Source of the DNA: Oscillospiraceae bacterium
GTDB taxonomy: Bacteria; Bacillota; Clostridia; Oscillospirales; Ruminococcaceae
Reading direction: 5' to 3'
Assembly: GCA_016302655.1 (NCBI GenBank)
Contig: JAEDNF010000030.1
Span: 1-11,020, forward strand
DNA: 11,020 nt
Each line of letters starts with the position of its first letter. Within the stretch, counting starts at the first letter, position 1. The translations under genes and the position numbers were made by a program. Positions 6,601 to 9,528 of the stretch are shown here, one piece after another. Under the pieces are notes generated by a model. That model was not told the DNA's origin. It saw only the letters and a program-made list of their open reading frames with translations, and made no database searches.

Positions 6601-7372
6601 GAATACTTTTTTGATAACTATGGCTGTTGTACTTGGTATAACAGCTTTTTCTTTCCCCGTTTCGGCGAATGTTTCCGCAAGCGAAGATACGGCAACAGAC
6701 ATCAGCGTAAATGACAGCATTGAGAGTAAAACGCCGCTTACGCCAAAAGGCAATTTAACGACCGTTGACGATGTTCATCAGGTCTGCGATGAGGATACGA
6801 TTGAAGATAAGCAGTTTATTACCGTACAGACAAAGAACGGCAATACATTCTACATCATCATAGACCGCAGCGGTGACAGTGAAAATGTTTATTTCTTAAA
6901 TGCCGTTGATGAAACGGATTTAATGGCACTTATGGAAGATGAGCAAAAAGCGGCTGTTACTGCTGCCGCAACTTGCACCTGCACCGAGAAATGCGAGGTT
7001 GGCAGCGTAAACACTGATTGTGCGGTTTGTTCAAAAAACAAGGATAACTGTATAGCACAGGCAGCAGCTACCCCTGTTCCCGATGAGAAAGAACAGCCGG
7101 CAGAAAAGAAGCAAAATACAACAATGCCGTTTGCTATACTCGTTCTGTTTGCATTGTTCGGCGCAGGAGGAGCGTTCTATTGGTTTAAGATTAAAAACAA
7201 GAAATCAAGCACAAAGGGTGACACCGATCCCAATGACTTGTTTGAGGAGGACGAGGACTACGAAACAGAGGACGAAGATACCGAGGTAGAAACGGAAGCA
7301 GAGCCTGATTATGAGATTGAGGACGAGGACAGCGAAATATCCGATGACGAAAGAGAGGATTTGAAAGAATGA
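6590..7372 (+). CDS. DUF4366 (CD1107 family) secreted membrane-anchored protein
   Basis: From ATG 6590 this is a 260-aa protein. It starts with a signal peptide (about 1-25: MRFKNTF, a hydrophobic core, then FPVSA). The DUF4366-like ectodomain follows, including KNGNTFYIIIDRS and VYFLNAVDE stretches typical of the family. A cysteine cluster holds Cys129, 131, 135, 144, 147 and 154. One transmembrane helix (about 179-202) precedes a basic stop-transfer (KIKNKK) and a strongly acidic cytoplasmic tail (about 213-260). The family is of unknown function but always accompanies the CD1108 and DUF4315 genes in Tn1549/CTn elements. The six cysteines may form disulfides or bind metal outside the cell. 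It overlaps the DUF4315 gene by 11 nt and topB by 4 nt (ATGA). Confidence 0.87.
   Translation: MRFKNTFLITMAVVLGITAFSFPVSANVSASEDTATDISVNDSIESKTPLTPKGNLTTVDDVHQVCDEDTIEDKQFITVQTKNGNTFYIIIDRSGDSENVYFLNAVDETDLMALMEDEQKAAVTAAATCTCTEKCEVGSVNTDCAVCSKNKDNCIAQAAATPVPDEKEQPAEKKQNTTMPFAILVLFALFGAGGAFYWFKIKNKKSSTKGDTDPNDLFEEDEDYETEDEDTEVETEAEPDYEIEDEDSEISDDEREDLKE
7256..7330 (+). repeat. Degenerate repeat encoding the acidic DUF4366 tail
   Basis: DYETEDED (residues 223-230) recurs as DYEIEDED (240-247), 17 residues later. At the DNA level GAGGACGAGGAC occurs at 7247-7258 and again at 7319-7330. This looks like an old 51-nt tandem duplication, or convergent low-complexity acidic sequence. Confidence 0.5.
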
Positions 7373-9528
7373 AGTTAGTAATTGCAGAAAAACCTTCAGT
7401 AGCAAAAACAATTGCAAAAGTAATCGGAGCTTCAAAACACAATGACGGATACCTATCAGGGGGCGGCTATGCCGTCTCTTGGTGCTTCGGTCATTTGGCA
7501 GAGCTTGCACAGGCTGAAAGCTATAATGAGAGCTACGGGAAGTGGAAACATTCGGATTTGCCGATTATTCCCGACACATGGCAGTACGCGGTAAGCGAGG
7601 ATAAAAGAAAACAGTTTGAAATCATATCAAATTTAATGCACGATAAAAGCGTTACAGAGGTAATTAACGCCTGTGATGCCGGACGTGAAGGTGAATTGAT
7701 TTTCAGAACGGTGTTTAACCTTGCCGGATGCAGTAAACCTATGAAGCGTTTATGGATTTCCTCTATGGAGGATACGGCTATAAAGGACGCTTTTAATAAT
7801 CTCCGTCCCGGCAGTGAATATGACGCACTGTATAACGCTGCTTTATGCCGAAGTAAGGCAGACTGGCTTGTTGGTATAAATGCGACAAGATTGTTTTCCG
7901 TACTGTATCACAGAACACTAAACGTCGGCAGAGTAATCTCACCCACACTTGCTATGATTGTACAGCGTGAAGCTGAAATCAAAGCCTTTAAGAGCGAACC
8001 GTTCTATAAGGTGTTTCTTGATTTTGATGGGTTTAAAGCAGAAAGCGAACGCTTTGCCGATGAAGAAAGTGCAGCAGCTGTTGCACAAATTTGCAACAAT
8101 GAAGAAGCAGTAGTTAAAGCTGTAGAACGCAAGGAAAAGAGCGAAAAAGCTCCTACACTCTACGACCTGACTACGCTTCAGAGAGAAGCTAACAGAACGT
8201 TGGGTTATACTGCTCAGCAAACACTTGATTACCTTCAATCCTTGTATGAAAAGAAGCTCTGCACCTATCCGAGAACAGACAGCAAATTTCTTACTGAGGA
8301 TATGAAAAATACCGTAAATGAGATTGTCGCAATAGCCGCTGATGTTCTTGGTTTAGTGTCCCCAAACAGCATTGATAAGGATAAGGTTTGCAACAATAAA
8401 AAGGTGTCCGACCATCATGCAATTATCCTTACAAAGAGCGTTAAAAACACTGATACCCATTCTCTCCTTGCAGGAGAGCAGGAAATCTTAAAGCTTATAG
8501 CAAAGAGAACACTTTGTGCTGTCAGCGAACCGTATGTATATACAGAAACATCAGCCGTGATTTGTTGTGGAGGCAAGGAATTTAACGCCAAAGGCAAATC
8601 GGTTATCAATCTTGGGTGGAAAGCCTTTGTTAAAACAGATGAAGGAGATAACAATCTGCCTAACCTCGGCGAAGGACAGTCGTTAATTACAAATTATATA
8701 TCTGTTAAAGAGGGCAAAACAACTCCTCCGAAGCATTTTACAGAGGACACAATACTTTTCGCAATGGAAAATGCGGGTGCAAACGATATTCCCGATGAAG
8801 CCTTTTCGGGGTACCCCGCGCAAGCGGGCTTGCGTGGGGAAAAGGAGGAACAACAAAGCGGAGTGGCTACCCGCCAAACGGTGGGTGTAACGGAGCGGAG
8901 TTTGTTCCGACGCGGTTTAGGAACTCCGGCTACAAGGGCGGCTATCATTGAAAAGCTCGTTTCGGTGGGTTTTGTTACAAGAACAAAGGGACAGAAAAAT
9001 GTAAATCTTATACCTGAAGGCATTGGTGCTTCTCTCATAACAATACTTCCGGAGGAATTACAGTCCCCACTATTGACGGCACAATGGGAACAGCAGTTGC
9101 TTTTGATTGAAAAGGGCGAAATAAACCCCGATGATTTTATGTCTGCGATTGAGAATATGGTGAATACTCTTGTCCGTGATTACAAGGTAATTGACGGAGC
9201 TGAGGTGTTATTCCCATCAGGGCGAGAAGTTGTCGGCAAATGTCCTCGCTGCGGCAGTAATGTTACAGAGAGCAAAAAAGGCTACTTCTGTGAAAAGAAT
9301 AATTGCAGATTTGCTCTGTGGAAAGACAATCGCTTCTTAACCTCAAAGAGAGTGAGCTTGTCATCTAAAATGGCTGAAAAGCTGCTTAAAGACAGCAAAG
9401 CCTACGTCAGTGGGATTTATTCAGAAAAAACAGGTAAAAAGTACGATGCTTTTATCGTTATGACCGATGATGGGACAAAAACAACATTCGGTCTTGATTT
9501 TACGAAAGGAGGTACTTTAAATGGCTGA
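7369..9528 (+). CDS. topB: DNA topoisomerase III (type IA), with in-frame structured insert
   Basis: This 719-aa type IA topoisomerase relaxes or decatenates DNA by cutting one strand through a tyrosine. The Toprim domain (about 1-150) has IAEKPSVAK near the N-terminus and the metal-binding motif DAGREGE at 103-109. The catalytic Tyr300 lies in TYPRTDS. Conserved TLQREANR precedes it and GLGTPATRA follows at 516-524. A four-cysteine zinc ribbon is at Cys625, 628, 641 and 646 (C-x2-C-x12-C-x4-C). Residues 479-514 are an unusual insert just before GLGTPATR, coded by hairpin-forming DNA. ICEs of this family usually carry topB beside the transfer genes, probably to help strand handling. It starts in an ATGA overlap with the DUF4366 gene and ends overlapping the next gene by 8 nt. 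The frame is intact. Confidence 0.96.
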   Translation: MKLVIAEKPSVAKTIAKVIGASKHNDGYLSGGGYAVSWCFGHLAELAQAESYNESYGKWKHSDLPIIPDTWQYAVSEDKRKQFEIISNLMHDKSVTEVINACDAGREGELIFRTVFNLAGCSKPMKRLWISSMEDTAIKDAFNNLRPGSEYDALYNAALCRSKADWLVGINATRLFSVLYHRTLNVGRVISPTLAMIVQREAEIKAFKSEPFYKVFLDFDGFKAESERFADEESAAAVAQICNNEEAVVKAVERKEKSEKAPTLYDLTTLQREANRTLGYTAQQTLDYLQSLYEKKLCTYPRTDSKFLTEDMKNTVNEIVAIAADVLGLVSPNSIDKDKVCNNKKVSDHHAIILTKSVKNTDTHSLLAGEQEILKLIAKRTLCAVSEPYVYTETSAVICCGGKEFNAKGKSVINLGWKAFVKTDEGDNNLPNLGEGQSLITNYISVKEGKTTPPKHFTEDTILFAMENAGANDIPDEAFSGYPAQAGLRGEKEEQQSGVATRQTVGVTERSLFRRGLGTPATRAAIIEKLVSVGFVTRTKGQKNVNLIPEGIGASLITILPEELQSPLLTAQWEQQLLLIEKGEINPDDFMSAIENMVNTLVRDYKVIDGAEVLFPSGREVVGKCPRCGSNVTESKKGYFCEKNNCRFALWKDNRFLTSKRVSLSSKMAEKLLKDSKAYVSGIYSEKTGKKYDAFIVMTDDGTKTTFGLDFTKGGTLNG
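8803..8910 (+). repeat. In-frame palindromic insert inside topB
   Basis: About 108 nt (36 codons; ends uncertain by a few nt) interrupt topB between IPDEA and RGLGTPATR, where relatives usually have two to four residues. By my count the insert is about 60% G+C, above its surroundings. It contains the palindrome CGGGGTACCCCG (8807-8818). Hairpin A has 11 bp with one wobble, 8814-8824 with 8829-8839, loop CGGG. AAAAGGAGG follows at 8840-8848. Hairpin B has an outer 7-bp stem GGAACAA/TTGTTCC (8847-8853 with 8902-8908) and an inner 7-bp stem with one wobble (8869-8875 with 8880-8886, loop AAAC). GCGGAG repeats on both sides of the inner stem (8858-8863, 8895-8900). Structure dominates over protein content, which suggests a mobile palindromic element that keeps the reading frame. 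Confidence 0.75.

Follow-up and report, generated by a model that had tools for sequence, protein, structure and literature searches.

Does the segment that interrupts the topoisomerase gene of this locus belong to the protein, or is it a structured DNA element that happens to be translated? The window, i.e., the whole stretch of 11,020 nt that was analysed, encodes Maff2, a TrbL/VirB6-like protein, PrgI, a TraG-type ATPase, an NlpC/P60 protein, a DUF4315 protein, a CD1107-like protein, TopB and an ArdC-N/LPD16 protein, and we take it to be part of a Tn1549/CTn-like conjugative element. The initial annotation described a mobile, hairpin-rich palindromic element inserted in frame in topB. The gene (7369..9528, + strand) codes for a type IA DNA topoisomerase III according to its ORF, its domain matches and TopB protein comparison, and it stays open on both sides of the insert as one intact, uninterrupted frame of 719 aa. 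The Topoisom_bac and Toprim domains exceed their cut-offs, and the C-terminal repeat matches weakly. An assembly error is unlikely to have produced the insert, since topB in a second assembly, an uncultured Eubacterium sp. MAG (L229), carries the same one. Counted by eye, the two inserts are identical except for 2 bases, both of which change an amino acid. One of these exchanges, T8882 to C in the L229 copy, turns a G-U pair into a G-C pair.

In the TopB alignment, 37 codons (FSGYPAQA...SLFRR; 8803..8913, + strand) replace 3 codons (ERK) of close relatives: the window reads DIPDEA-[FSGYP...SLFR]RGLGTPATR where the relatives P0009-P0024 read DIPDEA-ERKGLGTPATR. The insert is thus located directly before GLGTPATR, as had been described, and the net gain is 34 residues (719 aa with and 685 aa without insert). 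The covariance model R1 introduced below matches the window copy, which is among its 26 seeds, over model positions 1-108 with 84.5 bits and places the core of the repeat at 8808..8913 (+ strand). The annotated insert of about 108 nt is therefore real, but its ends, given as 8803..8910, shift to 8808-8913 for the core and to 8803-8913 at the protein level.

Within these boundaries, the 12-nt perfect palindrome noted initially is found at 8807..8818 (CGGGGTACCCCG), and base frequencies show its GGGG-N-CCCC core to be kept in the family. By fold prediction and covariation, the first hairpin joins 8814..8824 to 8829..8839 through 11 pairs, one of them G-U. The annotated Shine-Dalgarno sequence is also present as AAGGAGG at 8842..8848; a start codon at normal spacing from it is absent, and its last two bases lie within the outer stem of a second domain. 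This outer stem, supported by covariation, has its 5' side at 8847..8854 and its 3' side at 8900..8908 with a bulge at 8902, and is followed by the GACG 3' end conserved in the base frequencies. A site on the 8847-8854 side that is either tandem G-A or Watson-Crick across the family is Watson-Crick in the window copy. The inner hairpin of the second domain is predicted to pair 8870..8875 with 8880..8885, the arm that contains T8882 (fold prediction, L229 comparison). All these features lie on the + strand. The two strong hairpins of the initial reading are predicted as well: a 131-nt segment folds at -53.3 kcal/mol (z -2.29), and 6 of 200 shuffled sequences do equally well. Taken singly, the fold of the window copy is only modestly above chance, so that the case for structure rests on the compensatory changes in the family.

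The protein comparison is based on the best 120 of 6498 TopB hits, whose ranking favours insert carriers because the query region includes the insert. Even so, 92 of these 120 are without insert, and in 28 the site is occupied by a related insert. The statement that the stretch has no family counterpart consequently holds for most relatives, not for all of them. Among those lacking the residues are P0009, P0013 and P0024, which show 94-97% identity to the window protein; P0009-P0024 are the closest insert-free proteins among the best 120. This lends support to the reading as a mobile repeat. Across the best 120, the insert is present in some and absent in other proteins that are 94-98% identical. 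On a tree of 114 TopB proteins built with the insert columns excluded, the trait changes 8 times, with 5 changes forced by well supported branches, compared to 25.1 changes for shuffled labels; recombination between elements could account for part of this distribution. TopB lineages with just 52-63% identity carry an insert at the identical site with a similar peptide, and insert-bearing lineages retain a recognisable peptide, of which the GLRGEKEGQRNGADAR type recurs. Such same-site inserts in distant lineages could reflect either the long retention of a peptide or a hotspot.

At the DNA level, topB yielded a single partial hit, which is insert-free (L084), in 245 genomes of the order, and no match in phages and plasmids; a search for TopB in viral contigs gave no match either. 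Of the 291 class genomes, 113 contain a TopB hit, and the repeat model matched none of the 30 TopB loci taken from them (0/30). One further TopB (L279) bears a different, unrelated short insert in the same loop. The junctions of the repeat in topB and in the CD1107-like gene are not clean, as a few codons are replaced. The proposed surface loop agrees with predicted disorder: AlphaFold gives a pLDDT below 50 at residues 470-525, with 21-37 per ten-residue block over 471-520, although an alignment of few rows (28 sequences) may depress the values at the insert. In the same model, 528 of 719 residues reach a pLDDT of at least 70, with an overall mean of 76.6 and a pTM of 0.50, and the placement of the domains is not reliable.

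Searching the insert DNA for copies elsewhere, as had been proposed, revealed homologous copies at many unrelated loci, found with both blastn and R1. The family is a dispersed, strongly structured repeat of about 107 nt. With the window copy as blastn query, a 73% identical copy was found in MT839034.1 (L001), a 4.6-kb human-faecal record that is labelled phage and resembles part of a similar conjugative element. This copy lies in frame in a CD1107-like gene, right after a signal-peptide-like start, and is lacking at this place in L158 and L159. When the L001 copy served as query, 87 of 394 nearest-order genomes gave matches (E<=0.01, with at most 2 candidates scored per genome). The nearest order and class were taken from the closest genome sharing 30% of the window's words; they are likely those of the carrier and not necessarily the window's own, and the label Clostridia rests on the named records Eubacterium, Ruminiclostridium and Fusicatenibacter. 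The seeds of model R1 are 26 of the 30 listed copies; L038, L043 and L019 were left out by hand and L052 because of a coordinate error. The model matched 102 of 295 order genomes at E<=0.01 and 87 at E<=0.001, and eight genomes reached 13 or more matches, where 13 candidates were usually scored. In the class, 64 of 291 genomes across many families matched at E<=0.001.

The window copy as DNA query gave no match in 59 genomes near the nearest genome, which itself contains one weak R1 match (E 0.003). A negative control comprised 198 kb from 21 viral contigs: the best match scored 24.8 bits (E 0.003) and was seen in two contigs that agree in the sequence around it, and no match had E<=0.001; the counts at E<=0.01 may therefore include some chance hits. 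Three exact patterns had no match in viral contigs. A fourth occurs in 23 of them, with R1 matches at E<=0.001 only in L013 and L019. In this material, a viral-labelled contig holds two copies (L013 4317-5735; L019), and elsewhere the 3' end motif follows a repeat-like stretch (CTCATCCGTCAGC...CCTTCCCC). A plasmid hit (H2) of 22 bases with E 0.3 was taken as chance. Comparison to Rfam 15 gave no match to the element, either in 16 sources at E<=1 or in 40 loci at the gathering score. We did not find the family described in the literature, where coverage of subscription journals was thin, and it is apparently undescribed; one candidate report (PMC8172020) is, in the part available, unrelated to it.

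Compensatory base changes, the check suggested for the folded element, are abundant in two independent alignments. RNAalifold on the 26 copies finds double compensatory changes at 20 of 25 pairs. The second alignment consists of 36 hand-picked copies out of 64 further ones, all outside the model and none shared with the first; here 24 of 27 pairs are double-changed, and the same two-domain fold results. None of the three conditions that the initial annotation named as refuting thus applies: most relatives lack the residues, homologous DNA occurs elsewhere, and bases change in a compensatory way. In a count with given structure, 93.1% of the paired cells can pair, compared to 78.3% after shuffling and 43-52% with the partners slid, and the covariation amounts to 0.498 versus 0.224 for shuffled data, a value as high in 0 of 500 shuffles. 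Domain 1 extends the GGGG-N-CCCC palindrome into a hairpin of 11 pairs. Domain 2 is a long branched stem that contains the tandem G-A site and whose 3' end is GACGACGA-like. At the two-by-two site of its outer stem, 37 of 62 copies show tandem G-A, 21 two standard pairs and 4 other combinations, and the G-C pair at the outer end is reversed to C-G in a subset of copies. The sense RNA folds at -50.4 kcal/mol and the antisense at -38.0 kcal/mol, sense being the lower one in 116 of 117 copies; cells with G-U number 97, those with A-C 18. Better folding of the sense strand together with this excess of G-U suggests that the structure under selection is the single-stranded sense form, be it RNA or DNA. 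Part of the asymmetry reflects composition, because G-rich strands tend to fold better via G-U. The target of selection thus seems to be a fold of the sense strand that is tolerated in flexible loops.

To survey the genomic context, 120 high-scoring copies were used, which do not constitute a random sample: 56 of the 63 first-set matches (7 duplicates dropped) and 64 of the 65 second-set ones. According to a crude gene caller, 95 of them are intergenic, 9 lie in genes in sense, 13 partly in genes in sense, 2 in genes in antisense and 1 partly in antisense. How crude the caller is can be seen from L129, which was called antisense and truly lies in sense in mutL. All verifiable in-gene copies are in sense, while L078 (antisense) and L092 (partial antisense) stand as caller output. 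The antisense copy of L078 (1239-3113) is located between apparent variable and template repeats of a diversity-generating element. In-frame sense hosts with a Pfam match include topB, the CD1107-like gene, an NlpC/P60 protein, two DNA-methylase ORFs and a CHC2 primase; further ones are an EF-G-like protein with YacP domain (in a linker), a DUF5906 protein and MutL (in a linker). For topB, mutL and the CD1107-like gene this assignment is based on comparison to copy-free relatives, and for the CHC2 primase, the DUF5906 protein and the other hosts on ORF evidence. One of the two copies at L033 stops right at the methylase start and may be 5' untranslated. Several of the 13 sense copies lying partly in genes form an in-frame C-terminal tail, and tails derived from the repeat are seen in a serine recombinase and an IstB-like protein.

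Copies also reside in structured RNAs. The P12 loop of the RNase P RNA gene rnpB carries them, each in sense, in two families of the order, represented by genus g39 (L035-L038) and genus g81 (L066, L089); genes with one or two P12 copies are found at L036 1217-1841, L038 1211-1835, L066 1297-1757 and L089 1852-2313. In the family of g39, 4 of 10 genomes have the rnpB copy, and the number within the genus is 0, 1 or 2. At L034 (1407-1628), a copy lies in sense inside a pemK RNA motif (RF02913). A pemK RNA also adjoins a copy at L079, and at L113 (2001-2453) a copy with altered 5' end stands directly against the start of tmRNA. A subfamily of about 123 nt abuts tRNA genes, 3' end to 3' end (L040, L050, L111, L122, L137). 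Both neighbouring genes are co-directional with the copy in 45 cases and both opposed in 14, again by the crude calls. Genes that tightly flank copies in the same direction are presumably eutB-eutC and V-ATPase subunits, and some operon copies have a GAGGACG form of the 3' end just upstream of a start codon. Base frequencies over 114 copies show A-rich, G-poor 5' flanks without a fixed sequence and G-rich 3' flanks.

Several loci allow a comparison of filled and empty sites between relatives. The mutL copy is present in G171 and G447, and the filled site exceeds the empty one by exactly 114 nt, in frame, with a target duplication no longer than one base. Of the 18 relatives compared here, one is filled (G447), three are cleanly empty (G118, G090, G241), two have other lengths and 12 are unalignable on the left. 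In the gap between what we take to be eutB and eutC, G090 carries a copy, 13 of 19 relatives have a short gap of 24 nt and 6 of 19 a longer one; the model matches the longer gap in L208, with no match in L194, L200, L204 and L207. Other inverted-repeat-rich sequences fill the same gap in sister species (L194, L200, L204, L205, L207). In the DUF4315 gene, a copy occurs in L025, L026 and L028 and is absent from L001, L156-L160, L164 and L165. A copy of G425 and the copy of G287 are 96.6% identical, and two copies of G624 92.8%; their flanks, at 56-59% identity, are no more alike than unrelated sequence in the same comparison.

Other candidates for such evidence were rejected or set aside. L094 was dropped as an empty-site pair, its relatives having unrelated sequence in the linker. 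The three identical copies of G604 (L261-L263), at three places of a single-contig genome and presumably just upstream of 23S rRNA, share their flanks and were rejected as proof of movement. Three pairs were set aside as evidence of dispersal: the 100% pair L266/L267 of G624 has about 12 flanking bases in common on either side, the left flanks of the G465 pair are partly alike (71%), and one left flank of the 100% pair of G502 comprises just 3 bases.

Implementing all facts, the topB insert is very probably a copy of this dispersed structured repeat, without a conserved coding role, tolerated in a loop and mainly a selfish passenger moved in trans. That the 37 residues are an inherited functional loop of TopB, kept as protein and only incidentally similar to the repeats, seems highly improbable. 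The shared site in 28 of the best 120 hits, the recurring GLRGEKEGQRNGADAR-like peptides and the 8 instead of 25.1 changes on the tree would suit such a loop, but the same DNA unit occurs with covariation in intergenic DNA, rnpB, mutL and other genes, TopB proteins of 94-97% identity lack it, and the model finds it at none of the 30 class loci. Moreover, each of the two differences between the window copy and the L229 copy changes the amino acid, one of them at the same time improving a base pair. Still less credible is an insert that never reaches the product, being skipped or removed from the RNA by bypassing, splicing or processing. The strong sense-strand fold and the copies within an essential RNA, RNase P, would permit this, but the frame is kept open and the known gains are multiples of three (114 nt in mutL, 34 residues in TopB), which removal would not require; nor do the base frequencies show splice-like conserved flanks.

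A domesticated cis-acting RNA, i.e., a stabiliser, processing or regulatory element whose usefulness to host genes drives its spread, is unlikely. It would explain the crude orientation bias, the tight placement between co-directional genes (presumably eutB-eutC and V-ATPase subunits) and the GAGGACG ends right before start codons. Yet the bias could follow the replication strand, the examined copies show no consistent gene class, a regulatory use is not obvious for those in rnpB and inter-domain linkers, and the copy number varies between sister species. A MITE, the miniature derivative of a DNA transposase element with terminal inverted repeats, would likewise be small, dispersed and partly palindromic, and we regard it as very unlikely: judged by eye from the base frequencies of 114 copies, GGGG... 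at one end and ...GACGACGA at the other do not form inverted repeats, which together with the missing target duplication beyond one base in mutL disfavours an ordinary MITE.

For the selfish structured repeat, the following course would fit the observations. Copies may spread via an enzyme that acts in trans on the folded single strand, DNA or RNA. Within a host transcript, each copy would form a compact, self-contained RNA domain and would for this reason be tolerated in flexible loops or linkers of host products, such as the TopB loop ahead of GLGTPATR, the linker of MutL and P12 of RNase P RNA. Copies in genes would persist only where length and frame leave the reading frame open, and the peptide would be a by-product of a mainly selfish passenger. 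Movement of the repeat and the absence of a peptide role are probable readings of the sequence comparison. There is a small chance that the element copies via its sense RNA like a bacterial SINE, i.e., that a structured non-coding RNA of about 107 nt is put into host transcripts, or reverse-transcribed together with them, by a trans-acting reverse transcriptase. If true, this route would explain the sense orientation of in-gene copies, the lack of target duplication, the insertion into RNase P RNA, the tandem copies and the class-wide spread. The tRNA-abutting subfamily counts against the transcript-sense idea, because its 3'-to-3' placement is not explained by it.

ERIC, BOX, RUP and REP are dispersed structured repeats, a description that fits the family as well. 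Intragenic ERIC and BOX can encode peptides, according to the part of PMC10969869 available. The same excerpt describes Rickettsia palindromic elements as palindromic repeats of about 150 bp dispersed in frame within unrelated protein genes, and in-frame fusions by intragenic MITEs as not unusual (PMC10969869), which makes the topB insert less exceptional than the Rickettsia elements alone would imply. Our repeat works like the Rickettsia elements: it keeps the frame when inserted in protein genes, occupies unrelated genes as well as intergenic sites, and forms hairpins. The comparison made in the initial annotation is valid for this behaviour (in-frame, dispersed, palindromic), and kinship forms no part of its support. 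In contrast to the Rickettsia elements, the nearest genomes belong to another class, many copies sit in genes of conjugative elements, the fold is documented by covariation together with sense-strand asymmetry, and RNase P RNA as well as a pemK RNA motif harbour copies. MITEs are likewise short, non-autonomous mobile DNA, whereas the repeat family has no terminal inverted repeats or target duplication that we could see. The IS200/IS605 type of mobility (REP/RAYT) is marked by a Y1 transposase and a fixed target tetranucleotide beside the end; the 5' flank of our copies is A-rich and G-poor but not fixed. Embedded perfect inverted repeats of up to 284 bp are described, in the section of PMC6649704 available, for protein genes of Nematomorpha; these are mitochondrial and likened by description. 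STAXI, a structured motif frequently located close to genes for topoisomerase and other DNA-handling functions, consists, in the portion of PMC2864571 at hand, of tandem pseudoknots near genes, whereas our family forms inserts within genes.

Rickettsia is the best-known source of in-frame palindromic repeats, and here a large family is found in another bacterial class. One of its copies lies in a conjugative element from human faeces, and the family enters loops and linkers of proteins, structured RNAs and operon junctions. Some of the odd insertions annotated in mobile elements of the gut would be explained by it. Beyond this, it would offer a system in gut anaerobes for studying how proteins gain peptide segments from selfish, RNA-structured DNA, by which agent such DNA is moved, and how an essential RNA such as RNase P tolerates it.
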